Shown here in pieces: positions 23,288-61,250 of a stretch of 64,000 nt of DNA. Within the stretch, counting starts at the first letter, position 1; each line of letters starts with the position of its first letter. A model generated the notes under the pieces. The model saw only the letters and a list, made by a program, of their open reading frames with translations, was not told the origin of the DNA and did not search any database. Source of the stretch: Gammaproteobacteria bacterium (lineage in GTDB: Bacteria > Pseudomonadota > Gammaproteobacteria > Coxiellales > Coxiellaceae). The stretch lies in NCBI GenBank assembly GCA_030429175.1, contig JAUIDD010000002.1, positions 108,012 to 172,011 of the forward strand. Direction: 5' to 3'. The position numbers and the translations under genes are program-made.

Positions 23288-23356
23288 CGCCTTTTATTGT
23301 CCCACTATGACAATTTTGTTAGGATAAAAAATCTAGTCCTCTATGGAGTTGGTTCT

Positions 23357-42975: not shown

Positions 42976-43007
42976 AATAAAAACTGTTTTAGGCCATGGA
43001 GGCAGAT

Positions 43008-43592: not shown

Positions 43593-43691
43593 AAGCAATA
43601 AGGCTAAGAAGCAATCTGCACCACGCTAACGCTGCGGAGATTATTAAGTTTATTGATGGTATTTGAGAGGATCAGATTAAATAAAAACAAA

Positions 43692-43727
43692 TCGGAGTTT
43701 CACAATTTCAAAGTGAGAAACTACTGA
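43692..43727. repeat. Inverted-repeat site resembling insertion-sequence ends, left of the biosynthetic cluster
   Basis: GGAGTTTCACA at 43694 and AAGTGAGAAACTACTG at 43711 form an imperfect palindrome. The right half matches 14 of 16 bases of AAGTGCGAAACTCCTG, which occurs at 47423 and, reversed, at 63874 beside a transposase start. Nearby at 43620-43662 a short frame reads HANAAEIIKFIDGI and stops, possibly the end of a lost transposase. The rest of the 285-base gap up to 43878 holds no gene. Confidence 0.45.
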
Positions 43728-43877
43728 CAAAATGCAAATGTGAGGGTTGCCGCCTGATGAAAAAATTAACCCACACACAAAATTTGACTATAACTCATTA
43801 CCAGTAGGAAAATAAAATAAACTATGTTAGGATATTTTCCACCATGATAATTTACCAAAAACAAAATACTAAATTCT

Positions 43878-45440
43878 ATGGAACATAATAAGAAAGATAA
43901 ATATGTAACTGTATATCAATCAGCCACTCTTGGCATAAGCAGAACAATAACAACCTGCTCAACACTACTAAGTAACATTATAATTTCACACTTAGGTGAA
44001 AATGAAGTAGCCTCACTTCCTTACATTAGCTCACTCCAAGCTTTATCACAGGTAACAATAACCGCAGGCTTATCTCCAGTTGGGGGATTACTAGTCAATG
44101 AATTCAATAAGAACCCAGAAAGCAATAGAATTAAACAAATTATTAGACAAACACAAGCTGTTGGGCTAAAAGCATCAGTACCTATAGTAATACTTGTCTT
44201 TAGCGCTTGTGGATTATTATTTGCGATTGATATCAACCATGAAATTGCAAAAAATGTCTTATATTACTTTGTATCATATGCAGCAACACTCCCTTTATTA
44301 GCATTAACACTACCATCACAACAGCTTTTTATTGGTACAAAATATAAAGTTTACGCTATAATTTCAACACTACTAACCTCAGCACTACAACTTGGTTTTG
44401 CATATACAGCATACAAATTTGATATATTGCCAATACCAGCTGTGGGGCTATCTTTTACTATTTCCACCTTACTAAGATTAATTTCCAATGAAGTAGTACT
44501 ATTTCTAGTCGGGCACGCTGATAAACTATCTGAAATGAAAAACACATCAGAAAAACGTTTTATTATCAATAAGGGATTACCTGTTGCAGTACAATACTTT
44601 CTAGAAATGCTAAGTATTGTTTTAATCTCATTCCTGACCTCACTACTTGAAAGTGAAGATTTAAGAATGCGCGGCATCACATCAATGATTATCAGTTTTT
44701 TAGCACCCTTAGTGTTCGCATTTTCACAAGGTGCCACTTACTCAGTAGCAAGAACAAAAGCATTGGTTGATATCGGTAAACGCGATATATCGATGATTAG
44801 AAAAACCGCCTATGTCTCCACTCTCTTTGGAACAAGTATAGTTGCAACTTTTCTTGGAGCTTTATTTATCAGTACTGATTGGTATTTGAAAATTACTGGT
44901 GGCAACAAAAGCTATTTTTCGGATACACAAAAAGATTTTATGAGAAAGCTCATCTTAATGGCAGTAAGTGCGCAAGTATTAGACTCAGTAAGAAATATTT
45001 CTTCAGGTGTCTTAAAAGGTCTTGCTAATACAAGGTTTTCATCGTCAGTAAGTGTTATATTCAGATTAGTCATTAAAACCTCACTTGCAGCAATATTAGG
45101 CTTAGCTTTCTCTGAAGGACTTCTTGGGTTCTCAATTGCAAATTTAGTGACCTTGTTTTTAGAATCAATAGTTATGTTCATATATATGCATTATAGCACT
45201 CGGGTAGAGCACTGGGTTTTTAAAGAGGAAAGTAGTACCGCGCAAGAAACTTATTTTCAGGAAGTTTATAAAGAATTGTGTGGCTTGTGTACTTATATGT
45301 TTAACCTAATGACGGAATCACTCTGCAAATGTCAATCAAACTCAAATAATAGGTATTTTATTTTGGGCAAGCCTAAACCATCAGACAAACAGTCATTGTT
45401 AGATGATGGCCGCTTGATTATTAATTACAATACTGCTTAA
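43878..45440 (+). CDS. MATE-family efflux transporter, first gene of the biosynthetic cluster
   Basis: 520 residues, about 12 membrane helices in two similar halves: ISRTITTCSTLLSNIIISHLGENEVASLPYISS at the start and INKGLPVAVQYFLEMLSIVLISFLTSLLESEDLRMRGITSM at the middle. These are MATE (multidrug and toxic compound extrusion) patterns. A 70-residue cytoplasmic C-terminal tail is Cys-containing (ELCGLCTYMF, ESLCKCQSN). It should export the cluster product or a precursor by ion antiport. Its DNA, like the rest of the cluster, is AT-rich with AGA and ATA codons common, unlike the flanks. Confidence 0.8.
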   Translation: MEHNKKDKYVTVYQSATLGISRTITTCSTLLSNIIISHLGENEVASLPYISSLQALSQVTITAGLSPVGGLLVNEFNKNPESNRIKQIIRQTQAVGLKASVPIVILVFSACGLLFAIDINHEIAKNVLYYFVSYAATLPLLALTLPSQQLFIGTKYKVYAIISTLLTSALQLGFAYTAYKFDILPIPAVGLSFTISTLLRLISNEVVLFLVGHADKLSEMKNTSEKRFIINKGLPVAVQYFLEMLSIVLISFLTSLLESEDLRMRGITSMIISFLAPLVFAFSQGATYSVARTKALVDIGKRDISMIRKTAYVSTLFGTSIVATFLGALFISTDWYLKITGGNKSYFSDTQKDFMRKLILMAVSAQVLDSVRNISSGVLKGLANTRFSSSVSVIFRLVIKTSLAAILGLAFSEGLLGFSIANLVTLFLESIVMFIYMHYSTRVEHWVFKEESSTAQETYFQEVYKELCGLCTYMFNLMTESLCKCQSNSNNRYFILGKPKPSDKQSLLDDGRLIINYNTA

Positions 45441-45458
45441 CAGTAATGAATATTAAAA

Positions 45459-45878
45459 ATGAATACTAATATCTTTGAAATATTGCCTCATCGTTATCCA
45501 TTTATGCTACTTGATAAGCTTCTCAAGTGTATCCCTGGAGAGTCTGGCCTTGCGATTAAAAGGGTATCATGCAATGAACCTTATTTTACTGGTCATTTTC
45601 CAAATGAACCGATTGTGCCAGGGGTACTGATAGTAGAAAGTTGTGCTCAATTAATCGGTCTTATATGCGCTGATACAACCTCAAATACAAAATATCACCA
45701 ATATTTAACTGTGATAAAAAATTTCACCTTTAAACAACCTGTCATGCCTGGAGATACCATGTATATCCAAGCTAGAGTCACAGAGCAGGCTCATCAGTTC
45801 GTACAAGGAAAAACGCAAGTAAAAACAAAAAGAGGTATTGTCGCCTCTGGGATTATCATTATTACAGATAAAAAATAA
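45459..45878 (+). CDS. FabZ-like 3-hydroxyacyl-ACP dehydratase
   Basis: 139 residues of hot-dog fold. EILPHRYPFMLLDKL and NEPYFTGHFPNEPIVPGVLIVESCAQLIGL are the FabZ hallmarks; catalytic His is at 46 and Glu at 60. It removes water from a 3-hydroxyacyl-ACP to give a trans-2-enoyl chain. In this cluster it would act after the ketoreductase on each elongation cycle. It lies 18 bases after the MATE gene and two bases before the first halogenase-like gene. Confidence 0.92.
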   Translation: MNTNIFEILPHRYPFMLLDKLLKCIPGESGLAIKRVSCNEPYFTGHFPNEPIVPGVLIVESCAQLIGLICADTTSNTKYHQYLTVIKNFTFKQPVMPGDTMYIQARVTEQAHQFVQGKTQVKTKRGIVASGIIIITDKK

Positions 45879-45880
45879 AT

Positions 45881-47374
45881 ATGCCTATGCAAAATTATGA
45901 TGTCATTATATTAGGAGGAGGATTAGCTGGACAATGTCTAGGAAGACAACTAATTCTTAATAACCAAAAACTTAATATTTTAATAATTGAGCGTAATAAA
46001 TTTCCTGTGCAAGAATCTGCACACAAAGTAGGAGAATCAACTGTAGAGTTAGGCTCATACTACTTAAGTTCAGTCTTAGGCCTAGAACAACACTTAAAAG
46101 ATTCACATTTACCCAAAGCAGGACTACGATTTTTTTTTACAAATGGTAATAACCAGCAACTTAGCTCACGATATGAACTTGGTAGCACTGCATTTCCACC
46201 AGCACCAAGTTATCAATTAGATCGCGGCCGCTTAGAAAATCACTTATGCGATGAAAACAGAAAGTTAGGGATAGAAATAAGGGACAATTGCTCAGTAAAA
46301 AATTGTCATTTTGATAAAATTCACACTGTCACAATAGAAAAAAATAAGCAAATATCCAATATAACTACTCGCTGGTTAATCGATGCTACTGGAAGATTTA
46401 GTCTCATCAAACGTAAAAAAAATCTTAAAAAACAAAATAATCACAATGTTAATGCTAGCTGGTTTCGGTTAAAAACTAGAATAAACATAGATGATTGGCT
46501 ACCAAAGGCATCCTCACACACATATGTTCCTAAAAATCTAAGATACTTCAGTACTAATCATTTAATGGGGCATGGCTACTGGCTTTGGATTATACCCCTT
46601 GCATCAGGCTCAACAAGTATTGGGGTTGTCGCAGATAACAGGCCACACCCATTTGATACAATTAAAACATTTCCACAGCTAATAAAGTGGATGGCAAAAT
46701 ATGAACCTCAATGTGGAGATACTGTTTATGATTTGAAAGATGAACTTCAAGATTTTCATACGCTTAGAAACTACTCATATGGATGCTCAGAAATATTCTC
46801 ACCTCAAAGGTGGTGCCTAACTGGAGAAGCAGGTGTTTTTCTAGACCCATTATACTCGCCAGGAACTGACTTTATAGCAATTAACAACACAATGATATCA
46901 CACCTAATTCATGCAGAATATATGGGTGAGGATATAAATATATTAACTAAACGTTTTCAAAATTTATACTTACAATTGTATCAAAATTCATTATCAATAT
47001 ATCAAGACCAATACCTTATCATGGGCAATCATGAGCTCATGATAAGAAAAATAATTTGGGATTATGCTGTGTATTGGGGATTTACGGCTTTATTATTTAC
47101 TCACAATAAACTATGTGATTTTTCCTTCATGAAAGAAATCAAAAATGACTTACAAAAGTTGGACACTATCAATTATAAAATACAAAATTGCTTTAACAAA
47201 GCACATAAATTAAAGCTACCTCCCATTAAAAATAGCTTTATAAATACATTAACACTTCCAGAGTTGGGCTGCTATCAAGCAGAATTACTCGCTAGCTTTA
47301 CTAATACAGAATTGAAATCTAAACTTAAGGATAATTTAGGTGACATAATTAAGTATGCAAAACAATTATTTTGA
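45881..47374 (+). CDS. FAD-dependent halogenase-like oxidoreductase, copy A
   Basis: 497 residues. FAD-binding GGGLAG at 12-17, KVGEST at 49-54, WLWIIP at 234-239 (the WxWxIP of flavin-dependent halogenases), and FLDPLYSPG at 320-328, matching the Fx.Px.Sx.G halogenase signature. A Lys (79) in PKAGLRFFF sits where halogenases have the catalytic Lys. The wider match is to halogenase/geranylgeranyl-reductase-like flavoproteins, some of which are not halogenases, so chlorination or bromination is possible but not proven. It is a paralogue of the enzyme at 59.5 kb; they share YxxLDRGR-type and NHLMGxGYW blocks. Confidence 0.85.
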   Translation: MPMQNYDVIILGGGLAGQCLGRQLILNNQKLNILIIERNKFPVQESAHKVGESTVELGSYYLSSVLGLEQHLKDSHLPKAGLRFFFTNGNNQQLSSRYELGSTAFPPAPSYQLDRGRLENHLCDENRKLGIEIRDNCSVKNCHFDKIHTVTIEKNKQISNITTRWLIDATGRFSLIKRKKNLKKQNNHNVNASWFRLKTRINIDDWLPKASSHTYVPKNLRYFSTNHLMGHGYWLWIIPLASGSTSIGVVADNRPHPFDTIKTFPQLIKWMAKYEPQCGDTVYDLKDELQDFHTLRNYSYGCSEIFSPQRWCLTGEAGVFLDPLYSPGTDFIAINNTMISHLIHAEYMGEDINILTKRFQNLYLQLYQNSLSIYQDQYLIMGNHELMIRKIIWDYAVYWGFTALLFTHNKLCDFSFMKEIKNDLQKLDTINYKIQNCFNKAHKLKLPPIKNSFINTLTLPELGCYQAELLASFTNTELKSKLKDNLGDIIKYAKQLF

Positions 47375-47406
47375 TGAATGCAAACTTATTAAGTCAAAAA
47401 TATAAT

Positions 47407-47439
47407 AGGAGGTTTGTACTACAAGTGCGAAACTCCTGT
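47407..47439. repeat. Inverted-repeat site resembling insertion-sequence ends, inside the cluster
   Basis: AGGAGGTTTGTACT then AAGTGCGAAACTCCTGT; both halves resemble the same 17-bp end. The right half is an exact reverse complement of ACAGGAGTTTCGCACTT at 63874-63890. It lies in the 118-base gap between halogenase-like copy A and the carrier-protein gene. Confidence 0.55.
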
Positions 47440-47492
47440 ATAAAACAGGATGTTTATAGTCATTAATAGTATTTTAAATACCAGGAGGCATT

Positions 47493-48818
47493 ATGAACTG
47501 CACCGTCTTAGATAGTACGTATATTGAAGAGCGTTACCAAATCGTCAACTCAATTAAAAAATGTTTAATCAATTCTCTAGATCTAGATTATAGCCAAGAA
47601 CAAATACATGCAGATGAAATATTATTCGGCGCTGGACTTGCATTAGATTCAATTGATTCCTTACAGCTAACTGTTTCTATAAAAGCCGAACTGGGAATAG
47701 AAATTAGCGATGAAGATATGTGGGCACTACGATCTGTCAATACATTAGCCGATTATGTTATGCATAAAAAAGGAATATTAGCTAACATACGACTGAATAT
47801 GCTCAGCTCTTATGAAAATAAAAGTAGTTTATTAGGTTATAATAAAATCAGAAATGATGTTATCTTTTACGAAAATCAAGATTATATTCTATTAAGAATT
47901 AATGATGATATTAGTCTTTCAAATTTAAACAATATCGTATCTAAAGAAATTGACTTCACACCAGAAGGGTCTGTAACACAAACTTTACTTCTAGATGAAC
48001 AAGGTAATTTTGTAGCTATACTATATTTTATGAATAATTTTGATCATCACTTTTTATTAATATATGAAGAAAACAAAGAAACAATATTTTCGACACTAAA
48101 AAAATATGACGTTAACTATGACAACCTTGAATTGCAATACACCACATACTCAATTGAAGGATACAAAGCATCTAAAGCGATTGAATCTTGTTTTGATGTT
48201 GTTGTCTCATCTATGAATCCTCACTCATTCTCTATGGAGCCCTTAGATGGTAATTCGGATGTGATGATCGCACGAATAGATACACATGGAGAGTTTGGGT
48301 ATATAGTATTTTCTTTTGATGATAAAAATAACAAGACACTTATTAATAAACTTTCAGAAAAAAATATAACATTAATGCCTGCTGATAAAACTATAAATAA
48401 AGATACTGAGTTATTATTATGGCTAGAGTCTTGTATCTTTCACCCCTCAACCTGCTTACTAAAATCAGAAAATATCATAGAAACAGGTCTGTCATATTTA
48501 TTATCATTAGATAAAGACAATTTTATAGGTAAAGATGCTATAGTATCGGCCAACATAAACAACCAGCTTGTTCACTTTCAATCTGACACACCAATATTAC
48601 CTTCAGAGCTGCTATGTTATGAAAATAAAGATATTGGCTATGTGGTTATAACAGCATACTCCCCCCTACTAAATACTTATATTGGCAATGCATATATCAA
48701 TAAAAAATATGCGACTTCCGCTGCAATATTCAACACGAAATCTAACCCTGAAGTAGAGATTAAGCTTATAACAGCTCCTCAAATTTTAGGGCATAGCTAC
48801 TTGGATATTTTATCATGA
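47493..48818 (+). CDS. Acyl carrier protein fused to a GcvT-like domain
   Basis: 441 residues. Residues 10-95 are an acyl carrier protein: FGAGLALDSIDSLQLTVSIK, with the phosphopantetheine Ser at 53. From about 115 to the end the sequence follows the aminomethyltransferase/folate-binding (GcvT/YgfZ) fold: EGSVTQTLLLDEQGNFVAIL, GEFGYIVFSFDD, IETGLSYLLSLDKDNFIGKDAIV (compare GcvT IGKEAL) and IGYVVITAYSPLLNTYIGNAYI. The conserved GGxxDD of true GcvT is not kept (GNFVAILYF), so folate-dependent catalysis is uncertain. AGGAGG fixes the ATG. It overlaps the ketosynthase gene by four bases. Confidence 0.8.
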   Translation: MNCTVLDSTYIEERYQIVNSIKKCLINSLDLDYSQEQIHADEILFGAGLALDSIDSLQLTVSIKAELGIEISDEDMWALRSVNTLADYVMHKKGILANIRLNMLSSYENKSSLLGYNKIRNDVIFYENQDYILLRINDDISLSNLNNIVSKEIDFTPEGSVTQTLLLDEQGNFVAILYFMNNFDHHFLLIYEENKETIFSTLKKYDVNYDNLELQYTTYSIEGYKASKAIESCFDVVVSSMNPHSFSMEPLDGNSDVMIARIDTHGEFGYIVFSFDDKNNKTLINKLSEKNITLMPADKTINKDTELLLWLESCIFHPSTCLLKSENIIETGLSYLLSLDKDNFIGKDAIVSANINNQLVHFQSDTPILPSELLCYENKDIGYVVITAYSPLLNTYIGNAYINKKYATSAAIFNTKSNPEVEIKLITAPQILGHSYLDILS

Positions 48819-51130
48819 GCACAATTGCTGTGACTGGTTTGGGCCTGATTACTGCATTGGGCCCAGACGTTGAAAGCTCATTTCAACAAATCAAGCGAGG
48901 TAAAAATGGTATCTCACCAGTAAAAGCATGGGATGTGTCAAATTATGAAACGAAATTGGCGGCTGAAATTAAGTTTCCAATTCCTACTTCCCATATAAAT
49001 ACAAATACCTTGCTTGATCGCGGCCACAAATTACTACTCTCTGTTGTTGAACAAGCACTTAAAGATGCAAACTTATTGAATCACACTAAGACACTCAAAA
49101 TTGGGATCATAATTGGCACATCACTAGCTGGTATGGACTCAATGCAACGATATGATAAGGAACTCTGTTATAACAAAAAGGGAAATTTACGACAACTTAT
49201 CAACCAACCCAATCACTTTACTGCAGATATTGTTGCTGACACATTCCATTTAACTGGACCAAAACTAGTTATATCGACTGCATGTACTGCCTCTACAATT
49301 GCCATAGGTTGCTCGATAGCACTTTTAAGAAATGGCGCTGCTGATATGATCATTGCAGCAGGTTGTGATCATTTATCGACAATATCTTATACTGGTTTTT
49401 CTTGTATGAAAAACATGTCTACACAGCCCGCTGCACCATATAGCCTACCAATAGGCCTAACTTTAGGCGAAGGTGCAGGCGCAATTATATTAGAAAGATT
49501 GGATAAAACCGATAAAAAAAGAAAAATGAAATACGCCTATGCTAGTAACTACATGTTTACAGCAGATGGGTATCATGCGACATCACCAGACCCAAGAGGC
49601 CATGCTACAAGCTTCTTACTAAAAAAATTAATTGAAAAGAGCAACATAACGCCAATGGATATTGACTATATCAATATGCATGGCACTGGAACTCTTGGTA
49701 ACGATGCTACAGAAACCTCTATTATTGAAAAATTATTTTATAGTAATGGACACTCCATTCCTGTTTCTTCAATAAAAGGAGCAGTCGGCCATACATTAGG
49801 CGCAGCGGGAATAGTAGAATCTGTGCTAACTATCAAAGCAATGCAAGAAGATATTTTATTGCCAACAGTTAATTATAAGACAAAAAGGCAAAAATGTACC
49901 TTGGATTATATTCCTAATCAAGCAAGAAAAGCATCTCTCAAGCACACAATCGTACAAAATTTTGCTTTTGGCGGTAATAATGCTGCAATTTTATTTTCAT
50001 CACAAAAAGAAAATATTCAAAACACAAATAAAAAAAGAGTTGTAGTAACAGGAATGTCGGTGATTAGCCCTCTTGGTAACTCATTTGAAGAGATTTATGA
50101 AAATATACAATGTGGAACATCTGCCATAACCGATTATTACTCTGAAGAATTTAAACGATACTTCAAGTCGGCTAAATTAGATGACTTCAACCCTCGTAAC
50201 TTTATAAAATTAAATACTAGAAGAATGGATAAGCTATCACAATTAATTGTATCTGCAACTTATCTGACACTTAAAAATGCCAAAATTAACTCAAATATAA
50301 AAAATGATGATCCTATTGGCCTTATAACAGGGACAATGTTTGGGCATGCTCAAAGTAATCTAGACTTCCACAGAGAAATACTGACAAAGCATCCCTCCAA
50401 TATCGACCCAATTAAATTTCCAAATACAGTACTTAATGCAGGCACAGGTCAGGCATCAATCGTTAATCGCCTTAAGGGCTGTAATATCGCGCTGAGTATG
50501 GGTCAAGGTTCAGGATTAGCAGCCATTGAATTGGCTTATCAATTAATTCAGGATGGCTTACACTCATCTATAATTGCCGGAGGAGCAGATGAGCTATTTG
50601 ATTATTTATTATTTAATTATTATTATTCTGGACTATCGCGCAGCAATAGTACTAAACCAGTAAAAAATATGGATCGACTAATACTGAATGAAGGCGCTTC
50701 ATATTTCATGCTAGAAGAGCATGATCACGCTGTCTCTAGAGGTGCACATATTTATGCAGAATTAGAAACTTGTGATACAACATCACTTGAATTTAGTGTT
50801 TATTCAAAAAATAAAAACACAAAAGATCAAGTAGAATATTTCTTAAATAACTTCTTTAGTAAAAGCAAAACACACAATGAAATTGATAAAATTTACACAT
50901 CATCACTCAATTACAAAGGCTTTATTGATTTAGAATCACACTTACTATCTAAATTAACTAATAATACTCCACCAATAGTTGATCTACACAACCAAATTGG
51001 CATAAGTGCGCTAACTTCAGCAGTTAGCTTTGGATTAAGCTGTATCAGCAATGATAATCGATCTTTGATAAACTCAGCATCACTAGGTGGTACCTATTAC
51101 TCGGCTTTAATTAAGAAGTGGGACCACTAA
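48815..51130 (+). CDS. Fused ketosynthase and chain-length-factor (KS-CLF)
   Basis: 771 residues holding two thiolase-fold halves. The first (1-400) is a complete beta-ketoacyl synthase: Cys157 in STACTAS, His289 in MHGTGT and His326 in KGAVGH. The second (from about 407, KKRVVVTGMSVISPLG) lacks all three: Gln564 in MGQGSG replaces Cys, and the His positions read YTSSLNY and HNQIGIS. A Gln in place of Cys is the mark of chain-length factors in type II polyketide synthases. So one chain supplies both partners of a KS-CLF dimer. It should extend the chain with malonyl units. Confidence 0.88.
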   Translation: MSTIAVTGLGLITALGPDVESSFQQIKRGKNGISPVKAWDVSNYETKLAAEIKFPIPTSHINTNTLLDRGHKLLLSVVEQALKDANLLNHTKTLKIGIIIGTSLAGMDSMQRYDKELCYNKKGNLRQLINQPNHFTADIVADTFHLTGPKLVISTACTASTIAIGCSIALLRNGAADMIIAAGCDHLSTISYTGFSCMKNMSTQPAAPYSLPIGLTLGEGAGAIILERLDKTDKKRKMKYAYASNYMFTADGYHATSPDPRGHATSFLLKKLIEKSNITPMDIDYINMHGTGTLGNDATETSIIEKLFYSNGHSIPVSSIKGAVGHTLGAAGIVESVLTIKAMQEDILLPTVNYKTKRQKCTLDYIPNQARKASLKHTIVQNFAFGGNNAAILFSSQKENIQNTNKKRVVVTGMSVISPLGNSFEEIYENIQCGTSAITDYYSEEFKRYFKSAKLDDFNPRNFIKLNTRRMDKLSQLIVSATYLTLKNAKINSNIKNDDPIGLITGTMFGHAQSNLDFHREILTKHPSNIDPIKFPNTVLNAGTGQASIVNRLKGCNIALSMGQGSGLAAIELAYQLIQDGLHSSIIAGGADELFDYLLFNYYYSGLSRSNSTKPVKNMDRLILNEGASYFMLEEHDHAVSRGAHIYAELETCDTTSLEFSVYSKNKNTKDQVEYFLNNFFSKSKTHNEIDKIYTSSLNYKGFIDLESHLLSKLTNNTPPIVDLHNQIGISALTSAVSFGLSCISNDNRSLINSASLGGTYYSALIKKWDH

Positions 51131-52596
51131 TGACGATACTAAATAGTTATAAAAAAACATTTCACTCTATAATTGGTAGTAGGCTATATAAAAAGCCCGA
51201 TCTAACAACAGTTCAAGTAGCCTCACCAATCAATGGAGAAACATTATATGAAATAACTGAAGCTAATACTGACTGTATTAAAGAAGCTTGCGAGATTGCA
51301 GGAAAATCACAAAAAAAATGGGCGTCATTCAGCTGTGATTCAAGAGCAGATATTCTAGATAAAATATCTGATATAATCATCAAGAATAAAATACTACTTG
51401 CTGAATCTGAAATGCTCGATATTGGTAAATCTCTATCCCAAGCTTTAAATGAAGTCCAACTAGGAGCAGAATATTTTCGTTATTTTGCAGCTTGTATACG
51501 CACGCAAGAAGGATCTGCTTCACATGTAAAGGATGTACTATCGATCAACCTAAATGAACCAATTGGAAAGATAGCCATTATCTTGCCATGGAACTTTCCT
51601 ATTTTAATGTTTTCATGGAAACTTGCACCTGCATTAGCAGCTGGAAATTCAGTAATTGTCAAACCATCAGAGTATGCGTCACTCAGCATAATAAAACTAG
51701 TTGAGATCATAACACCCATAATACCCAAAGGCATAATAAATATTATACTAGGTAGTGGTAGCACTGCTGGAAAAAAACTGATTCAAGAAGCTACTTTTGA
51801 CAAGATTTTTTTTACCGGTGGTAGACATACTGCAAAAATAATCTCCAGCGCACTATCAAAGCGACTTATTCCCGCTTCATTTGAACTAGGAGGAAAATCA
51901 CCTTGTATTATCACTGCAGATTGCTTTAAACATAGTACTCAATTTAGAAACAAGATCTTGAAAAATGTCTTATTATTCACTCATAATCAAGGTCAAATAT
52001 GTGGTAATTTATCGAGACTCATTATAGAAGAATCTATTGCAGATACCTTTTTAGATCAGTTAAAAGATTCTCTTGAAAAATATACAGTTGGAGATCCTCG
52101 TAATAAAAAAAATAATATGGGACCTGTTATTTCAGAGGCACATAAAAATAAAATTTTAGAGCATATTAACCAAGCTCGCCAGAGTGGCGCTAAAATAACT
52201 GCATTCCCAAATACCATCCACTTAACCGAGACAAATAAGAATGGTTTTTACATATCACCTTACCTGGTTGAAGGAAATCAGAATATATCAATTTACCAAC
52301 TTGAGATATTTGGTCCAGTGTTATGTATTAGCACTTTTAAAACACTAAACGAGGCAGTTTACTTAGCCAATAGCACTCCATATGGATTAACTGCATCAAT
52401 ATGGTCACGTGATATTGAAGCTATAAACTATTTAACGAAAAATATAGATGCAGGTAAAATATGGATAAATGCCTCTCATATTTACTATCCTCATACAAAG
52501 TTTGGTGGATTTAAAGAGTCTGGATCAGGGAATGAAATGCATAAACTTGCTTTAAATGATTTTCAGAGAATAAAAAATATCATCCAGCATTATTAG
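51130..52596 (+). CDS. Aldehyde dehydrogenase
   Basis: 488 residues from the ATG at 51130, which shares its A with the preceding TAA stop (TAATG coupling); a GTG at 51118 is also in frame. NAD(P)-dependent aldehyde dehydrogenase: PWNFPILMFSWKLAPALAAGN, FTGGRHTAK in place of the usual FTGS, Glu252 in FELGGKSP and Cys291 in GQICGN. It oxidises an aldehyde to an acid. Given a carotenoid-oxygenase relative in the same operon, its substrate may be the polyene aldehyde made by that cleavage. Confidence 0.9.
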   Translation: MTILNSYKKTFHSIIGSRLYKKPDLTTVQVASPINGETLYEITEANTDCIKEACEIAGKSQKKWASFSCDSRADILDKISDIIIKNKILLAESEMLDIGKSLSQALNEVQLGAEYFRYFAACIRTQEGSASHVKDVLSINLNEPIGKIAIILPWNFPILMFSWKLAPALAAGNSVIVKPSEYASLSIIKLVEIITPIIPKGIINIILGSGSTAGKKLIQEATFDKIFFTGGRHTAKIISSALSKRLIPASFELGGKSPCIITADCFKHSTQFRNKILKNVLLFTHNQGQICGNLSRLIIEESIADTFLDQLKDSLEKYTVGDPRNKKNNMGPVISEAHKNKILEHINQARQSGAKITAFPNTIHLTETNKNGFYISPYLVEGNQNISIYQLEIFGPVLCISTFKTLNEAVYLANSTPYGLTASIWSRDIEAINYLTKNIDAGKIWINASHIYYPHTKFGGFKESGSGNEMHKLALNDFQRIKNIIQHY

Positions 52597-52607
52597 GGGA
52601 TTTTAAT

Positions 52608-53345: not shown

Positions 53346-54775
53346 ACATAAAATCATTAGCCACAAACAATTGTTTTTTAAGCTATAAGAAGAAGCTAGG
53401 AGGCATAGCTCGACCTCTTGATAATGAGATAAATCATCAAGAACTACCTATAAAAGGAAATATACCAAAATCAATATCAGGAACTTTCTACAGAAATGGT
53501 CCAAACCAAAAAACACAGCCTTTTTCACACCATCACTTGATAGATGGTCATGGGATGTTACATAAATTTGACATCCACAATAGTCGCATTTACTATACAA
53601 ACCGATGGATTAATACAAAAATATTTAATCTTGAAAACAAATATAATACTGGATTGACAGGGAGCTTAATCAAACCCTTTTGCTCTCATAATAAAATTAA
53701 ATTATTATCTTCAAGAGAAAGAACAAGGGCGAATACAAATGTTTTTAAGTTAAAAAATATGCTATATACTTTCGAAGAAGGCGGCATTCCCTATATTACA
53801 AATCAAGAAAATCTAACTCATTTCTATATCTTTAAAGATGCACTTAAACTTAAAACTACAGTAACAGGGCACCCAAAATATGATCACGATGAAAAAAAAT
53901 TATATTGCATTAATTGGAATGGTGAAGATAAATATGCAGCCTGCACTGTCTTTTCAATAGATGAAAATCATAAATGCAGTAATTTAAAGACAGTAGATAT
54001 GCCATATAGAGCCTTTATACACGATTTTGCAATCACTAAAAACTATATTATTATACCGCTCTTTCCTTGCCTTGTTGATTATAATGCTAATAAAAAAAAT
54101 GTGGCGCATAATGTATTTAGCTGGAACCCAGAACTAGCAGCTGAAATTATTATTCTTAAAAAAAGAAACTTTGAAATCGTTACCTCTTTTAAAATAGATT
54201 TATGTTATGCACTGCATACTTGTAATGCTTACGAGCAAGGAGATCATATTTATCTTGACCTTATAGCACACGATAGCCCTATTCTTTTATATAACGAAGA
54301 ATCATATACAGGCAAAGAAAAAATAAGATCGCAACTAACCAGGCTCGATTTAAATCTCAACTCAAAGAAGTCGAACATAATTTTTTTAGATAGTAGTGAC
54401 TTCCTATATAATTTTCCACGCATTGATGATCGACTTACCGGCAAAAAGCATCGATATATATATGCCACCATGACAAGAAACCCCAATCGCAATCACATCT
54501 TATATAATGAGTTTCTTGTAGCATTTGATACACTAAACTTACAAAAAAAAGTTTTTTTATATGGCCAAGATTGGTTTTTTAATGAACCTATTTTTGTAGC
54601 CAACCACCACTCCAATTATATTCTATCAATAGTTTCAAACTATAAATTAAATCAATCAAAATTATTATTTTTTAATGAAAATGATATTTCAACCGGACCC
54701 ATTGCTGAAGGCGTCATATCTCATATGATTCCTTATGGATTTCATGGTCATTGGTCAAGTGTGGAGGAAAAATGA
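53342..54775 (+). CDS. Carotenoid-cleavage-oxygenase-family enzyme
   Basis: 477 residues of the RPE65/carotenoid-oxygenase seven-bladed propeller. The four iron-binding His are all visible: His177 in GHPKYD, His227 in FIHDFA, His292 in ALHTCNAYEQGD and His468 in GFHGHW. The N-terminus IPKSISGTFYRNGPNQ is also conserved. Members cleave conjugated double bonds with O2, giving aldehydes or ketones, or isomerise polyenes. Inside a polyketide operon its natural target would be the conjugated polyene made by the KS/KR/DH set. No signal peptide. Confidence 0.9.
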   Translation: MNIKSLATNNCFLSYKKKLGGIARPLDNEINHQELPIKGNIPKSISGTFYRNGPNQKTQPFSHHHLIDGHGMLHKFDIHNSRIYYTNRWINTKIFNLENKYNTGLTGSLIKPFCSHNKIKLLSSRERTRANTNVFKLKNMLYTFEEGGIPYITNQENLTHFYIFKDALKLKTTVTGHPKYDHDEKKLYCINWNGEDKYAACTVFSIDENHKCSNLKTVDMPYRAFIHDFAITKNYIIIPLFPCLVDYNANKKNVAHNVFSWNPELAAEIIILKKRNFEIVTSFKIDLCYALHTCNAYEQGDHIYLDLIAHDSPILLYNEESYTGKEKIRSQLTRLDLNLNSKKSNIIFLDSSDFLYNFPRIDDRLTGKKHRYIYATMTRNPNRNHILYNEFLVAFDTLNLQKKVFLYGQDWFFNEPIFVANHHSNYILSIVSNYKLNQSKLLFFNENDISTGPIAEGVISHMIPYGFHGHWSSVEEK

Positions 54776-55686
54776 AAGGTGTTATGTTATTTTCTGGTCA
54801 AGGAAATTTAAAAATAAAATCCTTAAAATGGCTTTGTCAGCGACTTCCCGAAGTAAAACATTTTATACTGAACGCATCTGATCTATTAAAACATGACATA
54901 AGTTATATGTTTGATGCCTCTGGTTTACACAATACACAATACCAGCAATTAGTAGTCTGTATCATAGCAGCTGCATATATTAAACATTTTGAAAAGTTAA
55001 ACATTAGCATTGCTGCTGGACATAGCCTGGGAGAACTAATTGCATGCTACAAACTAAAAGTAATATCCTTTGAGGACTTAATTTTAATTGTTTCTGAACG
55101 TGGAAAAATTATGCAAAAAATAGCAAATCAATGTAAAGGTGGCATGCTAATTATTTTTAGTAATGAGCTTTCTATGATAAACACTATATATGAAGAGCAA
55201 TTTTCAGATCGCATCTCTTTAGCTAATGTAAACTCTGATACACAGGCTTTATATTCTGGCCTAATATCTGAGCTTACCGAATTTGAAACTGTGATTAAAA
55301 AAAATAGAACATGTGTTAGCAGATGGTTGGATGTTAATGGCCCATGGCATAGTTCATATATGCTCCCAATAGTTAATACATATAAAATAATTTTAGAAAG
55401 GCATCATTTCAATCAACCCGATGGTAAGCTATATATGTCTTTTCCTAGCATACCTTCACATAACCCTAATCAAATAAGGAACAATCTGGCCAATCAACTC
55501 GCTACAACAGTTTATTGGTCAAAATTGATTAGAGCAATAGTTAAAACTGAACACCCAGATTTCTTTTTTGAAATAGGTCACGGGTCAGCCTTAAAAGGAC
55601 TCCATAAGCATATATGTCCACATATACCAATATATTCCGCAGGAGATAAGAAAAATATTCAAAAATTGCTTTTAATGCCATCATAA
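54772..55686 (+). CDS. Malonyl-CoA:ACP transacylase-like acyltransferase (FabD type)
   Basis: 304 residues from the ATG at 54772, after GGAGG and overlapping the previous stop (ATGA). MLFSGQGNLKIK is the FabD start, nucleophile Ser85 lies in GHSLGELIA, the catalytic His193 in GPWHSSYM, and ATTVYWSKLI near the end is the fingerprint region. It should load malonyl units on the carrier protein. It is a cluster-specific copy and quite divergent from housekeeping FabD. Confidence 0.87.
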   Translation: MKGVMLFSGQGNLKIKSLKWLCQRLPEVKHFILNASDLLKHDISYMFDASGLHNTQYQQLVVCIIAAAYIKHFEKLNISIAAGHSLGELIACYKLKVISFEDLILIVSERGKIMQKIANQCKGGMLIIFSNELSMINTIYEEQFSDRISLANVNSDTQALYSGLISELTEFETVIKKNRTCVSRWLDVNGPWHSSYMLPIVNTYKIILERHHFNQPDGKLYMSFPSIPSHNPNQIRNNLANQLATTVYWSKLIRAIVKTEHPDFFFEIGHGSALKGLHKHICPHIPIYSAGDKKNIQKLLLMPS

Positions 55687-55689
55687 TGA

Positions 55690-57051
55690 ATGTTATATAT
55701 GAACTTACTTGATAATAATAAAATACAAAAATTAGCCAAAAAAAGCCTCCCAAGCTCTATTGATAGATTATCGTGGACCAGAGCGAAACTTGAGAACTAT
55801 CAGCTTAAAAAATTGAAATTAATATTAGCATATGCAAAAAAATACTCTCCATGGTATGCACATACACTCAAAAACATTGAATTATCTTCATTTACTCTAA
55901 AAGATTTAAATAAGATCCCTATTCTCACCAAAGATACATTCATAAATCATTGGGATGATATTGTCACTGATAGAAAACTATCACTAAAATATATACAATC
56001 TATCATTAATCAGAAATGTAAGAATAACACTTCATACAGAATAACGCGTTCAGGTGGCACATCTGGCAAAACAGGACTCTATGTATTTGACCGCTCTGCC
56101 TGGATCAACTCATTTAATTCGACAATAAGAGCACTAATACACGAAAAAGTTATACAGAATAAAATTAATCAAACAATCACTCGCATCACTTTAGCAGCTC
56201 CTTTTACTACACATATGACAAGTAGCTTAATGATTGGTGCCCAGTCTGCGGTAAATGATATATATTTACCTGTAACAGAACCATATGACTTAATTCTAAA
56301 AAAAATTCAAACTCATAATATTGATATCTTGCAAGGCTTCCCCTCAATGCTATCAAAAATAGCGACTTCTCACCTTAATGGTGATATTTATATAACACCA
56401 TCGATTATAATTAGCATGGCAGAACCACTAGATGCTCAAACGAAAACTCTATTAAAAAAGACTTGGAACGTTAAAATTTATGATGTTTGGGCTACAGGCG
56501 AATTTGGCCCCCTAGGCATCACCTGTCATAGTTGTGATAATATTATACTAAATAGTGATCATTGTTATTTTGAATATAGCTTTAATAAAACGATCCCACC
56601 AACATCAAATACTCTTTTAGTTACAAGCCTTCACAATAAAGTAATGCCATTAATCAGATATCAAGTTGATGATATACTTGAACAGTCAGAACCTAACACA
56701 TGTTGCCACTCTCATTTTGGAGTTATAGGTGGCATCATCGGACGCCCCAGTGATATCTTCTATTACGATAATATTATAGTTCACGGATATTGTATTCGTA
56801 TGGTATTTCTTAAATTCCCCAATATACTGGACTACCAGATTTATCAAACACAATCTGGAGTTGCTGTACACCTAAACAAAAAATATCAATCACAAGATAA
56901 TGATATTAAAAAATTATGCACCATGTTAAAAGATAATCTATGCCACCTTGGCTTGAAAAATCCAACTGTTAAAATAAAATATGTAGACAAAATGAAAACA
57001 ACTCCTGCAGGAAAAACACAAAGACTTATTGCATTAAAGGAGAAAAAATGA
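55690..57051 (+). CDS. PaaK-like adenylate-forming enzyme
   Basis: 453 residues. The phosphate loop RSGGTSGKTG, WATGEFGP and LIRYQVDD are as in phenylacetate-CoA ligase-type enzymes. The C-terminus ends in MKTTPAGKTQRLI, with the Lys expected of the catalytic second domain. These enzymes activate an acid as AMP ester and pass it to CoA or a carrier. Here it may load a starter acid or activate the finished acid for coupling to an amine. No obvious ribosome site. Confidence 0.82.
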   Translation: MLYMNLLDNNKIQKLAKKSLPSSIDRLSWTRAKLENYQLKKLKLILAYAKKYSPWYAHTLKNIELSSFTLKDLNKIPILTKDTFINHWDDIVTDRKLSLKYIQSIINQKCKNNTSYRITRSGGTSGKTGLYVFDRSAWINSFNSTIRALIHEKVIQNKINQTITRITLAAPFTTHMTSSLMIGAQSAVNDIYLPVTEPYDLILKKIQTHNIDILQGFPSMLSKIATSHLNGDIYITPSIIISMAEPLDAQTKTLLKKTWNVKIYDVWATGEFGPLGITCHSCDNIILNSDHCYFEYSFNKTIPPTSNTLLVTSLHNKVMPLIRYQVDDILEQSEPNTCCHSHFGVIGGIIGRPSDIFYYDNIIVHGYCIRMVFLKFPNILDYQIYQTQSGVAVHLNKKYQSQDNDIKKLCTMLKDNLCHLGLKNPTVKIKYVDKMKTTPAGKTQRLIALKEKK

Positions 57052-58067
57052 CAGTCACACAAAAACCATCCCTACTGAACTGTAGTGATATTAAAAGCAT
57101 TCAGCAGCTTGTATACCTAGTCTATAAAGATGCCTATGCCTCAGACTGGATTTACAAAAAAGAGGAACTAAAAAATAAAATACGCTCAAAAGAGTTGACT
57201 TTTTTGGGTATAAAAAAGAATGGAATGTTGGTTGGCCTACTATGTATGAGCTATCCGCACCCAACCCAATATGTAATTGAACTGAATAAACTTATTATTC
57301 ACCCAGCCTACCGTGCTTATCAAAATGGATCTGTGATTCGCTCACTAATAATGGAATCAAAAAAAATAGTAAATAACTTAGCAGAAAAAACTCATGTTTG
57401 TGTACTCTTGACAGCACCAATAGTAAAGCATCAACTCTCTCAAAAGTTACAGCTTATTTTAGGTTTATATTCTGTCGGCATAGCTTACTGTACACGTCCT
57501 GATGAACATGAACTGCATAAAATTTTAAAAAATAAAACACAATCCCTAAATCTTGCTTCCCTCAAAAGAAATGATCAAGTAATTTCCATTTACTGCTACA
57601 AAAACAAACTTAGTATTATTGATATTTGCCTCCCACGAAAATATTTTTTAATATTAGAATCATTACTACCACACGAAAAATTATCTATTTTTAATAGTAA
57701 AAAAAGCAAACCACTTCCAAATAATGATGTAAACTTACAAATTAAACCAAGACAAAGCTTTGTCACATTCAAAATTGATTCCACGTGTAATTATAATGAC
57801 CTAGTTAAAGATTTACTCGATATAATTAATAAAAATTATAGAGTAATTCATATTTATATAAATGTTGGAAACTATGATAATATCGAGCTTATAGAAAAGC
57901 TTGACACACTAGGACTTATATTTAGTTATTTCATTCCTTGTTATTTCGGAGCAGGTGGACATGCACTTGTATTACAATATCTAAATAATCTCAAACCAAC
58001 CTCTAAATCAAAACAATTTTACGATCCTAAAATGCAGCTATTACATAAACAATTACTAGGAGTCTAA
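57048..58067 (+). CDS. GNAT-like acyltransferase with unknown C-terminal half
   Basis: 339 residues. The first 150 have the GNAT pattern of a folding core: ELTFLGIKKNGMLVGLLCMSYPHP then VIELNKLIIHPAYRAYQNGSVIRSLI, the last being the acetyl-CoA-pyrophosphate-like turn. The second half (160-339) is not recognised and is beta/alpha with FGAGGHALVLQYL near the end. It could join an acyl group, maybe the polyene acid, to an amine. AAAGGAG precedes the ATG, overlapping the PaaK-like stop by four bases. Confidence 0.65.
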   Translation: MTVTQKPSLLNCSDIKSIQQLVYLVYKDAYASDWIYKKEELKNKIRSKELTFLGIKKNGMLVGLLCMSYPHPTQYVIELNKLIIHPAYRAYQNGSVIRSLIMESKKIVNNLAEKTHVCVLLTAPIVKHQLSQKLQLILGLYSVGIAYCTRPDEHELHKILKNKTQSLNLASLKRNDQVISIYCYKNKLSIIDICLPRKYFLILESLLPHEKLSIFNSKKSKPLPNNDVNLQIKPRQSFVTFKIDSTCNYNDLVKDLLDIINKNYRVIHIYINVGNYDNIELIEKLDTLGLIFSYFIPCYFGAGGHALVLQYLNNLKPTSKSKQFYDPKMQLLHKQLLGV

Positions 58068-58070
58068 TGT

Positions 58071-59396
58071 ATGTTTAAATCCTTAATTAATACTTCCTAT
58101 CCATTTATATGCTCCCGTCTTTTAAATGTTTTACTTGATGTTATATCAGTTTTTATTGTTGCTCACCTTGGCATATCTATACTGTCAGCTTACGGCATTG
58201 TTATGCCCATCTATTTAACCATTTTCTTAATTATCACCTCTTACTTGCTTATCTTCTCAGTTAAAGCTGCACGTATTTCACAAAATAAAAATATAATGTC
58301 TATCTATATTGGTTCAGGACTGGTTTTTTCTCTTATATTATCGATTATCAATATAATTATTTTTATTGCTATACCTAAAATATTACCATATCTTGGACAG
58401 TCTATCTCAGTTAGCCATTATGCGGGAAACTTTTTTTACCTAATTACATTGGGCGTTCCCGCCATACTAATGAATATTATCATTACTCAAACTTTAGTTG
58501 TTTACTCAAAATCAGCTTTTGTATTATGGTCTGCAATTATTCAAGTTTGTGTTGGTATTTTCTTTGTATTACTATTCACACACTACTTTAAGCTGAACCT
58601 CAAAGGTGTTGCTCTAGGATTTGATATTTCATATTGGGCTAAATTTTTTATTCTGATGACATATTTAAAAAATTCTAAGGATATTGAATTTAAATGTAAA
58701 CTTGGTAGCAAGCCCCAAATAACAGAAGACATTAAGTTTTTAGTAAAATTAGGCTGGCCAGTATCATTACAATATGGCGGCGAGCTATTAGCTGGTTCAA
58801 TAGCTGCCCTTATGATTGGGCACATATACTCTGAAGCACTGGCCGCACAACAGTTAGCAAACCAAGTCAGAGTGTTATGTATTATGATACCGTATGGCTT
58901 GAGTCAAGGCTTGTCCATTATGCTTTCTGCAAAACATTCCGGTGACTTAGCTGAGAGACGTGCATACACACACCTTTTTTTAAAAGAATCTTTATTTTGG
59001 ACTATACCTATTATGCTTGCAATTGTATTAGTCATAAATTCATTTTCACTAAATTATGCAATAAACTTTCTCAACACCAATAACCAACATTTAATTTATT
59101 TAACACAAATATTTATTGTTATAACATCAGTCGCCGTTTTATTCGATACTATTAAATATCTCTTAATGGGCCTTCTACGCGGCATGAGTGATACAAAAGG
59201 TAGTATGTTTCATTCTCTAGGAGCTTATTATATTATTGGTATACCATCTGCATATTTGATGGGTTATGTGCTACATCTTGGAGCCATTGGCATTCGTCTA
59301 GGCATGCTGTTTGGATTATTAGTAAGCGTAATACTTATATTTAAATATTACTTAAACTTTGTAAATTGTAAATATACCAGGGAATCGTATCACTGA
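58071..59396 (+). CDS. MATE-family efflux transporter, second copy
   Basis: 441 residues, 12 helices: LINTSYPFICSRLLNVLLDVISVFIVAHLGISILSAYGIV in the first half, VKLGWPVSLQYGGELLAGSIAALMIGHIYSEALAAQQ in the second, the standard MATE pattern. No close likeness to the 43.9-kb copy in wording, though it keeps the same fold. AGGAG lies upstream of the ATG. It ends the 12-gene plus-strand run and is followed by a perfect 20-bp hairpin. Confidence 0.87.
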   Translation: MFKSLINTSYPFICSRLLNVLLDVISVFIVAHLGISILSAYGIVMPIYLTIFLIITSYLLIFSVKAARISQNKNIMSIYIGSGLVFSLILSIINIIIFIAIPKILPYLGQSISVSHYAGNFFYLITLGVPAILMNIIITQTLVVYSKSAFVLWSAIIQVCVGIFFVLLFTHYFKLNLKGVALGFDISYWAKFFILMTYLKNSKDIEFKCKLGSKPQITEDIKFLVKLGWPVSLQYGGELLAGSIAALMIGHIYSEALAAQQLANQVRVLCIMIPYGLSQGLSIMLSAKHSGDLAERRAYTHLFLKESLFWTIPIMLAIVLVINSFSLNYAINFLNTNNQHLIYLTQIFIVITSVAVLFDTIKYLLMGLLRGMSDTKGSMFHSLGAYYIIGIPSAYLMGYVLHLGAIGIRLGMLFGLLVSVILIFKYYLNFVNCKYTRESYH

Positions 59397-59412
59397 ACAT
59401 GCGATCCATAAA

Positions 59413-59479
59413 TAACCTCAGCATCTGTATTACAAATCAAGCATTGACAGTCTTATTTTTAATACAGATGCTGAGGTTA
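59413..59479. repeat. Perfect 20-bp inverted repeat between the convergent genes
   Basis: TAACCTCAGCATCTGTATTA at 59413 and its exact reverse complement at 59460, with a 27-base loop. No T run follows in either direction. The right arm overlaps the stop codon of halogenase-like copy B. The outer TAACCTCA is the same as that of the MITE ends at 12 and 29.6 kb. It may act as a bidirectional transcription barrier. Confidence 0.75.
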
Positions 59480-61123
59480 AACATTGTTAACTACCTGAGA
59501 TTGCGTAACTCTCCATAAATCATATTTATTCCCATCTCCATTAATATAAAAGTCTGGAACAATACATTTATAATTTATAATATCATTTGCTAATTTTTTC
59601 ATAAGCGTAAGATTACTATTAATTTCTCTTTTTAAATCGCCATCGCTAATCTTTTTTTCCACATATAGCTGCTTATATATACGTCCACCATAATATTTTG
59701 AATGAATAATATCTGAAAAATTTAAAAAATTGTTTTCTAATCTAATTTTTTTATACTTATCGGCATTTTCTATAAAATGATTTTGCACTCTAGTTGTTAA
59801 TTCTTTATATGTTTTAAATGCATCCAATCCTACTGTACTCATAAAATCTAAATCACAAAATTTATTTTTATAAAATAATAAATATGGAACACCAAATGCA
59901 CAGATAGTATCCCAAAGAATTTTTTGAATCATTAAGTATGGACTATCAAAATTTTTATAATGGCCATCAAAATGTAATAATAATATATTAAAATATTCTA
60001 TATATGTATTATTATAAAGACTTATCCGATTGGAAATACTTTCACCATTGCTATCCCTATAAATTAGATCTGTAATATAAGTATTCCCCAGTGCAATAAA
60101 ATCGTTTCCTGGTGAATAAAATGGATCAGCAAAAACACCTGCTTCACCTGTAATATACCATCTGTTTTCAGAATATAACTTCTGGCATGAATACGCATAA
60201 TGTTTAAGCCTACGAAAATCAAGCAACTTATCTTTAAGGTCTTTAATATTTAAATAACATTGTGGCTCGTGTATTGCTAGCCATTCTAGAGTTGTATCAA
60301 AATTTTCAAAATGGTTAACATGGTGAATTTTAGGATCATAGACCACACCGATACTCGTTGCACCCGATGATAAAGGTATAAGCCAAACCCAATATCCCTT
60401 ACCCATTAAATGATTGGTACTGTAATAACGTTGCCCATAGGGGCTTCTTTGCCCCCATAACTTATCTTTCGACCACGTACCCACATCAACCACTGATTTC
60501 AACCTAAACCACGCTGCCGAACTATCATGCTGCAAAGGCTTATGCAAGTTTAATTTTCGCTTTAAAAAACTAAATCTGCCTGTTGCATCAACCACCCATC
60601 GAGCTTGCAATTCATATGACTGATCATTTTTTTGATAATAAATAATATGATTTTTGCACTTATCATCTGATAAGTGTATATCTTTTATAATCGCAGGCGT
60701 GATAATCATTATTCCTTTTTTTTGATTTATATCATAAAGATGATTTTCAAACCTTCCTCTGTCAATCTGGTATGTCGGCACTGGGGTTGGAAGCTGAGCA
60801 GAACCCATTTCATAACGCTTTGTTACGTCTGTATTATCATTTTGGGGAAAGAAATAACGCAATCCTAATTTCTGAAAATGCTCCCTTATCAAGTGTTGCT
60901 TAAGTCCTAATGTGTGAGCATAATACCGCGCACCCATTTCGACAGTGGACTCTCCCACTTTAATTGCTGCTTCTGGCAGAGGGTAGACATTTCTTTCAAG
61001 GACGGTAATTGTTTTATCAGGCATCTTCCGCTTAAGCTGTCTGGCAATAGATAATCCAGCGATACCACCGCCTAATATAACAATATCTACCGTGTCTGAT
61101 ACATTCGTGTTGACCATGCTCAT
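59477..61123 (-). CDS. FAD-dependent halogenase-like oxidoreductase, copy B
   Basis: 548 residues from the ATG at 61123 (a TTG three codons upstream is also in frame). Same features as copy A: GGGIAG, KVGESTVE, the Lys in QKLGLRYFF, NHLMGKGYWVWLIP (WxWxIP) and GVFADPFYSPGNDF (Fx.Px.Sx.G). The C-terminus is about 50 residues longer than copy A. It is on the minus strand, convergent with the second MATE gene, so it is separately transcribed and may add a different or alternative modification. Halogenation remains unproven. Confidence 0.85.
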   Translation of the reverse strand: MSMVNTNVSDTVDIVILGGGIAGLSIARQLKRKMPDKTITVLERNVYPLPEAAIKVGESTVEMGARYYAHTLGLKQHLIREHFQKLGLRYFFPQNDNTDVTKRYEMGSAQLPTPVPTYQIDRGRFENHLYDINQKKGIMIITPAIIKDIHLSDDKCKNHIIYYQKNDQSYELQARWVVDATGRFSFLKRKLNLHKPLQHDSSAAWFRLKSVVDVGTWSKDKLWGQRSPYGQRYYSTNHLMGKGYWVWLIPLSSGATSIGVVYDPKIHHVNHFENFDTTLEWLAIHEPQCYLNIKDLKDKLLDFRRLKHYAYSCQKLYSENRWYITGEAGVFADPFYSPGNDFIALGNTYITDLIYRDSNGESISNRISLYNNTYIEYFNILLLHFDGHYKNFDSPYLMIQKILWDTICAFGVPYLLFYKNKFCDLDFMSTVGLDAFKTYKELTTRVQNHFIENADKYKKIRLENNFLNFSDIIHSKYYGGRIYKQLYVEKKISDGDLKREINSNLTLMKKLANDIINYKCIVPDFYINGDGNKYDLWRVTQSQVVNNV

Positions 61124-61250
61124 CCAACTCAAATTTTTGTATAACTAAATTCATTTAAATATACATTTATTTGATATTAATGCAATAGTTTTAACTTTTT
61201 TCATCTTTACACATCTAGGAGCTGTTAACAACTACTCCTAAACAAATATA

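Follow-up and report, generated by a model that had tools for sequence, protein, structure and literature searches.

Gene content of the island

In this work we focused on an inserted island that lies between sdaA and pssA in a stretch of 64,000 nucleotides (the window) of contig JAUIDD010000002.1, from a gammaproteobacterium of the family Coxiellaceae. It carries 13 open reading frames (ORFs) at 43878-61132, 12 of them co-directional and one convergent, which include a fused ketosynthase and chain length factor (KS-CLF), an acyl carrier protein (ACP) fused to a GcvT-like domain, a ketoreductase (KR), a dehydratase (DH), an acyltransferase (AT), an aldehyde dehydrogenase (ALDH) and a carotenoid oxygenase of the RPE65 family (Table 1). 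On balance we favour the reading that these genes build a conjugated polyene, which the oxygenase likely cuts and whose cut end the ALDH would oxidise, giving a polyene acid. The cluster is acquired, intact and very likely polyene-making, and the cleavage step is likely.

An earlier note on this DNA had described thirteen genes in AT-rich DNA and had inferred a halogenated and cleaved polyene as their product. All 13 genes are present, in DNA with 32.9% G+C (GC), and the polyene core and a likely cleavage withstood the analysis; the note had overlooked the ACP-GcvT fusion, and the halogenation it proposed is open to a hydroxylase reading. Its family labels were sound overall, except that its "ACP" is the ACP-GcvT fusion and that the GNAT label is weak (E 0.023), the protein having no NCBIfam match. 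The catalytic motifs were checked in seven core proteins (KS-CLF, DH, KR, AT, ALDH, ACP and oxygenase) and are kept in all of them. Adjacent ORFs overlap by start and stop at 48815/48818, 51118/51130, 53342/53345, 54751/54775 and 57048/57051. The PaaK-like ligase matches a phenylacetate-CoA ligase (4r1l) in the PDB at E 1.4e-8.

Table 1. Features of the island and the evidence for their assignment (positions in the window)
Feature	Position	Strand	Evidence and remarks
Inserted island	42976..61250		18,275 bp, between sdaA and pssA
Half-length MFS ORF, 198 aa	42996..43592	+	GC 0.397, host-like
MATE-family exporter 1, 520 aa	43878..45440	+	Pfam MatE 44.6 bits
FabZ-type 3-hydroxyacyl-ACP dehydratase	45459..45878	+	GHFP, PGVLIVE; NCBIfam NF000582 137 bits, cut-off 113
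FAD enzyme 1, flavin-dependent-halogenase-like	45881..47374	+	Pfam FAD_binding_3 and Trp_halogenase; GGGLAG, GEST, K79, GYWLWIIP, FLDPLYSPG
ACP fused to GcvT-like folate-fold domain	47493..48818	+	Ser53 in DSID; T-protein Asp pair replaced by Ala-Ile
Fused ketosynthase and chain length factor	48815..51130	+	Cys157 in TACTA, HGT, GHTLGAAG; Gln564 in GQGSG
Aldehyde dehydrogenase	51118..52596	+	Pfam Aldedh 435.8 bits; GQIC, ELGGK
FabG-type ketoreductase	52608..53345	+	YSASK
Carotenoid oxygenase (RPE65) family enzyme	53342..54775	+	Pfam 320 bits; H177, H227, H292, H468; E146, E415
Malonyl-type acyltransferase	54751..55686	+	GHSLG
PaaK/CapK-like acyl-adenylating ligase	55690..57051	+	NCBIfam TIGR02304 99 bits and FlxY 57 bits, both below cut-off; PDB 4r1l
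Weakly GNAT-like protein	57048..58067	+	Pfam GNAT E 0.023 (below cut-off); PDB best E 0.099
MATE-family exporter 2, 441 aa	58071..59396	+	Pfam MatE 75.9 bits
FAD enzyme 2, halogenase-like	59477..61132	-	GEST, K88, GYWVWLIP, FADPFYSPG

Probable polyene synthase core

The KS half of the fused protein keeps Cys157 and both His, and its second half has Gln564 where a KS has Cys, as in a CLF; the KS Cys and the CLF Gln564 are invariant in all five aligned sequences, that of the window included. A KS Cys paired with a Cys-less CLF, together with a dedicated ACP, KR and DH in an island that has no enoyl reductase, as the earlier note had stated, characterises a highly reducing type II polyketide synthase (PKS). 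Compared with FlxB and FlxY of flexirubin synthesis, the KR and the ligase reach 245 and 57 bits, respectively, in both cases below the cut-off. The top fold match of the ACP part is ApeE, tied with other ACPs. One candidate phosphopantetheinyl transferase of the PF01648 family is encoded in the genome. From these sequence features, it is highly probable that the core of the island (fused KS-CLF, ACP, KR, DH and AT) is a polyene-making PKS of this type.

It is improbable that the set instead makes a reduced or aromatic polyketide, with host enzymes carrying out the reduction or the GcvT-like domain guiding the folding. FabF is the family to which the KS half scores closest, and an enoyl reductase may exist elsewhere in the genome, which would suit such a product. 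Against this, the island has a dedicated KR and DH, and none of its proteins was assigned to a cyclase or aromatase family. In addition, Priestia has a comparable core for which no enoyl reductase is listed (in an incomplete gene table), and the same activities are found in six other loci.

ACP-GcvT fusion

The GcvT-like domain has the fold of a T-protein. In this domain, Ala and a gap stand opposite the Asp-Asp pair of 1yx2, and the alignment with the GcvT sequence P0012 gives Ala-Ile; Asp is absent at both positions in six out of six sequences (P0001-P0006). D97 of the Escherichia coli T-protein, which is changed in PDB 3a8k, is presumably part of this pair. Given the loss of the Asp pair, the domain is more likely to hold the chain or a folate-like ligand than to transfer an aminomethyl group.

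In seven other loci (L139, L016, L017, L019, L015, L014 and L158), which span Bacillota, Spirochaetota and Pseudomonadota, a fused KS-CLF is immediately preceded by GcvT-like sequence. KR, ACP and DH are found nearby in all seven and AT in six. With the locus of the window, a recurring GcvT-like protein beside a ketosynthase is thus brought to light in eight loci of three phyla. One of them (L014) is a true ACP-GcvT fusion, and in L015 and L019 ACP and GcvT are separate genes. The scan of genome contigs kept 80 loci, all screened by tblastn, of which 77 had a match confined to the ACP part or extending little beyond it; L016 and L017 are the two of these 77 that were examined further. The GcvT-like protein on the Priestia megaterium plasmid pBM500 is annotated merely as a glycine cleavage T barrel protein.

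Searching related bacteria for the same gene set, as the earlier note had proposed, gave no other ACP-GcvT fusion among 36 genomes of the family, 369 of the class and 398 of the phylum (the samples overlap); at the level of the order, the set was identical to the 36 of the family. In the phylum sample, eight of the 398 genomes matched at E <= 1e-35, namely that of the window and seven whose matches begin at query position 85 or later, in the GcvT part. KS-CLF matches were present on 1269 plasmid records, and the neighbourhoods were examined in one Priestia and one Streptomyces record. The Streptomyces plasmid (L140) carries a fused KS-CLF without a GcvT match, so that GcvT is not general to fused KS-CLFs. 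A search of viral contigs with the KS-CLF profile gave 58 loci at 24-41% identity, which were not used.

Tentatively, we propose that the GcvT fold may have been recruited as one core component of reducing type II PKSs (AT, KR, ACP, DH, GcvT and KS-CLF) that form a class of their own, distributed over Pseudomonadota, Bacillota and Spirochaetota. Here it would be fused to the ACP and act on the ACP-bound polyene, in a pathway ending in an apo-polyketide cleavage that would mirror apocarotenoid formation on a non-isoprenoid chain.

Carotenoid oxygenase and aldehyde dehydrogenase

The oxygenase, encoded by the single RPE65 gene of the genome, has the four His iron ligands and the second-shell Glu of the RPE65 family on the family fold. 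The four His are kept in 42 of 42 aligned sequences, and second-shell Glu in 42/42 and 39/42. Its structure model has a mean predicted local distance difference test score of 90.4, with lignostilbene dioxygenases as best fold matches. Lignostilbene dioxygenases use a Lys for phenolate activation. The oxygenase lacks this feature: Glu145 stands at the position of that Lys in 5v2d, and Glu is found there in seven out of seven members of the clade of the oxygenase. This clade (P0133-P0139) has a support of 100/100 and a stem of 1.24. Three of the six other members (P0137, P0138 and P0139) seemingly share a contig with a relative of the ACP-GcvT fusion and/or the KS-CLF, judged only from the base counts of their longest contigs (65878, 42965 and 110640), which equal those of the contigs with these relatives.

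No match to phytoene synthase (SQS_PSY, PF00494) was found in the genome, which is 98.93% complete; the control gave a match in 7 of 14 genomes. There is therefore no evident home-made carotenoid for the oxygenase, and a role in cleaving a home-made isoprenoid carotenoid is not supported. Its gene overlaps the KR and AT genes within one operon. Taken together, it is rather likely that the oxygenase acts on the polyene, and there is an even chance that the resulting aldehyde is oxidised by the ALDH.

Carotenoid oxygenase matches also occur on 99 plasmid records, and in the three neighbourhoods examined (Megaera, Nostoc and Streptomyces HUAS 31) no KS match was found. On the Streptomyces plasmid (L162, 11935-14742) a carotenoid oxygenase adjoins an ALDH in a catabolic-looking set with CoA-transferases and an enoyl-CoA hydratase; this pair alone is therefore not diagnostic of polyene tailoring. 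The carotenoid oxygenase of the Candidatus Megaera polyxenophila plasmid (L160, 14962-16386; 27% identity) lies amid transposases. A nearby protein annotated as FAD-dependent oxidoreductase (22189-23799) has no similarity to the FAD enzymes of the island at E 1e-4.

The claim of the earlier note that the cleavage enzyme and the ALDH shorten the polyene to an apo-polyene acid is the best reading, with intact motifs, no phytoene synthase match and a supporting clade context; it is a prediction from sequence, and two other roles have to be weighed. The oxygenase might oxidise or isomerise the chain end without shortening it, as proposed for SmcC4, which would give a full-length polyene dicarboxylic acid or aldehyde. 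This is unlikely, since the iron ligands and second-shell Glu are kept and sequence and fold are nearest to enzymes that cleave double bonds. The analogy itself may not hold, as the sections of PMC11727611 considered here group SmcC4 with CrtP as 'carotenoid oxygenases' and do not state RPE65 membership. Less probable still is that oxygenase and ALDH act outside the pathway, on compounds such as plant stilbenes or the carotenoids of a eukaryotic host, and merely share the island with the polyene cluster. The fold matches to lignostilbene dioxygenases, the catabolic-looking set of L162, the carotenoid oxygenase on the plasmid of the endosymbiont Megaera, the PaaK-like ligase (whose family also occurs in the breakdown of aromatic compounds) and a possibly host-associated life, suggested by a DotA/TraY-family protein in the genome, would all be compatible with it. 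It is opposed by the operon structure, in which the oxygenase gene overlaps those of the KR and the AT, by the company of KS-CLF and/or ACP-GcvT on the three other contigs matched by base count and by the Glu in place of the Lys of 5v2d; the PaaK-like ligase apart, the families assigned in the island include none that is typical of aromatic catabolism. Cleavage of the polyene remains the reading that we prefer.

The DotA/TraY-family protein, a member of a type IV secretion or conjugation family, is encoded at G000:C46:42083-44290. From it, the bacterium may be host-associated, which would place an unusual pigment-type pathway in such a setting.

FAD enzymes

The two FAD enzymes share 41% identity. 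Both match solved halogenases in the PDB, with best E-values of 1e-20 for enzyme 1 (which matches 8zop, PltA and CmlS) and 2e-14 for enzyme 2. Flavin-dependent halogenases carry a GWxWxIP motif and an active-site Lys. By motif and pairwise alignment alone, GYWLWIIP and K79 are present in enzyme 1, and GYWVWLIP and K88 in enzyme 2. A myxococcote (L044) and Pelagicoccus (L028) have relatives with 29-36% identity, located within a few kb of matches to KS and ACP.

Halogenation, as the earlier note had it, is plausible, though flavin hydroxylases share the fold. That both enzymes are hydroxylases or epoxidases has a nearly even chance: their NCBIfam matches are scattered over CmlS, geranylgeranyl reductase, UbiH and QhpG, all far below the cut-offs, 3nix, the first or second PDB match, is named only flavoprotein/dehydrogenase, and two enzymes at 41% identity are many for one halogenation. 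On the other side, both keep GYWxWxIP, near the halogenase motif, and an FxxPxxSxG run also present in PltA; a Lys (K79, K88) downstream of GEST stands at about the position of the halogenase Lys, and several solved halogenases match. Judged from these sequences, halogenation is possible, at slightly less than even odds.

Origin of the island

The GC content of 43593-61250 is 0.329, versus 0.394-0.410 in 51 overlapping stretches of the same size from the remaining window, which served as baseline in place of the whole genome, and 0.40 on either side. In the sister genome G001 (locus L141), the sole other genome of the genus compared (68% complete), sdaA and pssA lie tail to tail with no DNA between them, their stop codons overlapping on opposite strands (8668-8670 and 8667-8669, respectively). 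TamB, AmpG, DUF3579 and PLD genes flank them in the same order as in the window. Because of the low GC and of the touching sdaA and pssA in the same genus, the block 42976-61250 is a horizontally acquired island.

pssA had a match in 32 other genomes of the family, and 17 pssA regions were examined. Besides that of G001, sdaA lies 0.24-0.92 kb from pssA in four of them (L143-L146), and 3.4, 7.7 and 5.2 kb away in L142, L147 and L150, with other ORFs in between. It was not found in the pieces examined for the remaining nine, which include short contigs. Since the extra ORFs differ among L142, L147 and L150 and none are present in G001, the junction resembles a hotspot for insertions, where DNA is taken up.

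The ends of the island have no direct repeats, as no 11-mer is common to both, and scans for promoters (89 found, 96.2 expected) and terminators (8 found, 7.8 expected) were at chance level. The MFS ORF at the left edge spans the N-terminal half of an MFS transporter only, and at E 1e-8 none of the 17 pssA regions contains a match to it; it is probably a remnant.

Proposed pathway

In the predicted pathway the AT would load malonyl units onto the ACP of the ACP-GcvT fusion, and the fused KS-CLF would extend the chain. The FabG-type KR and FabZ-type DH would convert each keto group into a double bond, because their motifs are present and the island has no enoyl reductase. The GcvT-like domain, which gene order links with the ketosynthase in eight loci, would probably bind the chain or a folate-like ligand. 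The iron-dependent oxygenase would then split one C=C of the released or ACP-bound chain, giving an aldehyde that the ALDH would turn into an acid, by a logic akin to that proposed for limocrocin. More speculatively, the PaaK-like ligase might activate either the released acid or a starter, with the weakly GNAT-like protein perhaps coupling the activated compound to an amine. The two FAD enzymes would either halogenate or hydroxylate the product, and the MATE proteins would export it.

Comparison with known systems

The gene combination of the island was not found in the literature searched, although it may be described elsewhere, and searches for a carotenoid oxygenase or GcvT with a polyene PKS gave no description beyond the limocrocin paper (PMC11727611), with no hit in PMC10132072. 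The cluster, called undescribed-looking by the earlier note, is so as a combination within this literature; polyene PKS clusters are known, and similar cleavage logic has been proposed for limocrocin and simocyclinone.

In aryl polyene clusters an aryl starter is loaded by an acyl ligase. The island shares with them KS-CLF, a FabG-like KR, a FabZ-like DH, an ACP (with ApeE as best fold match, tied) and an acyl ligase, here PaaK-like. It differs by a single ACP-GcvT fusion, a fused KS-CLF, a carotenoid oxygenase and an ALDH, and by the lack of a second ketosynthase, whereas aryl polyene clusters, as described in the consulted part of PMC8358021, have two ketosynthases, a heterodimeric KS-CLF and a second one. 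Membership in this group was rejected, since only one KS-containing protein is present among the 13 ORFs; of the earlier comparison with aryl polyene pathways, the conjugated polyene formed by repeated KR/DH cycles fits the core and the cluster type does not.

The plasmid pBM500 of P. megaterium QM B1551 (NC_014025, L139) has the same six core activities (AT-KR-ACP-DH-GcvT-KSCLF), with the GcvT-like gene (BMQ_RS26295) directly before a fused KS-CLF (BMQ_RS26290) and no enoyl reductase listed. It differs by separate ACP and GcvT-like genes and by thioesterase and phosphopantetheinyl transferase genes that lie upstream in this run; for the 26 kb shown, the incomplete gene table lists neither a carotenoid oxygenase nor an ALDH or FAD enzyme. 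The celluxanthene (cex) cluster also makes a bacterial polyene pigment and was rejected as a counterpart, as the part of PMC12144888 consulted describes an iterative type I PKS with another gene set.

The limocrocin (lim) cluster of Streptomyces roseochromogenes, as far as it is presented in the sections of PMC11727611 used here, likewise combines KS proteins, ACP, KR and DH for a polyene with acyl-activating ligases, an oxygenase (Lim18) and an ALDH (Lim16), the last two being proposed to cleave and oxidise the polyene to a dicarboxylic acid. However, Lim18 belongs to the ABM family of monooxygenases, the two KS proteins are not fused, and the gene table in those sections shows neither a GcvT-like protein nor a pair of FAD halogenase-like enzymes nor a MATE exporter. 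For simocyclinone, the same sections assign SimC4/SmcC4 to a 'family of carotenoid oxygenases', proposed to act with an aldehyde step towards a tetraene dicarboxylic acid. That cluster is actinobacterial, the proposed step may be a terminal oxidation, and the likeness is one of description.

Cleavage to polyene diacids has thus been proposed, but not with an RPE65-family oxygenase in the literature examined. The island would make RPE65-type polyene cleavage directly testable, with one such enzyme in a genome without a phytoene synthase match, and, if the reading is true, its gene combination would suggest a bacterial pigment of a new kind.

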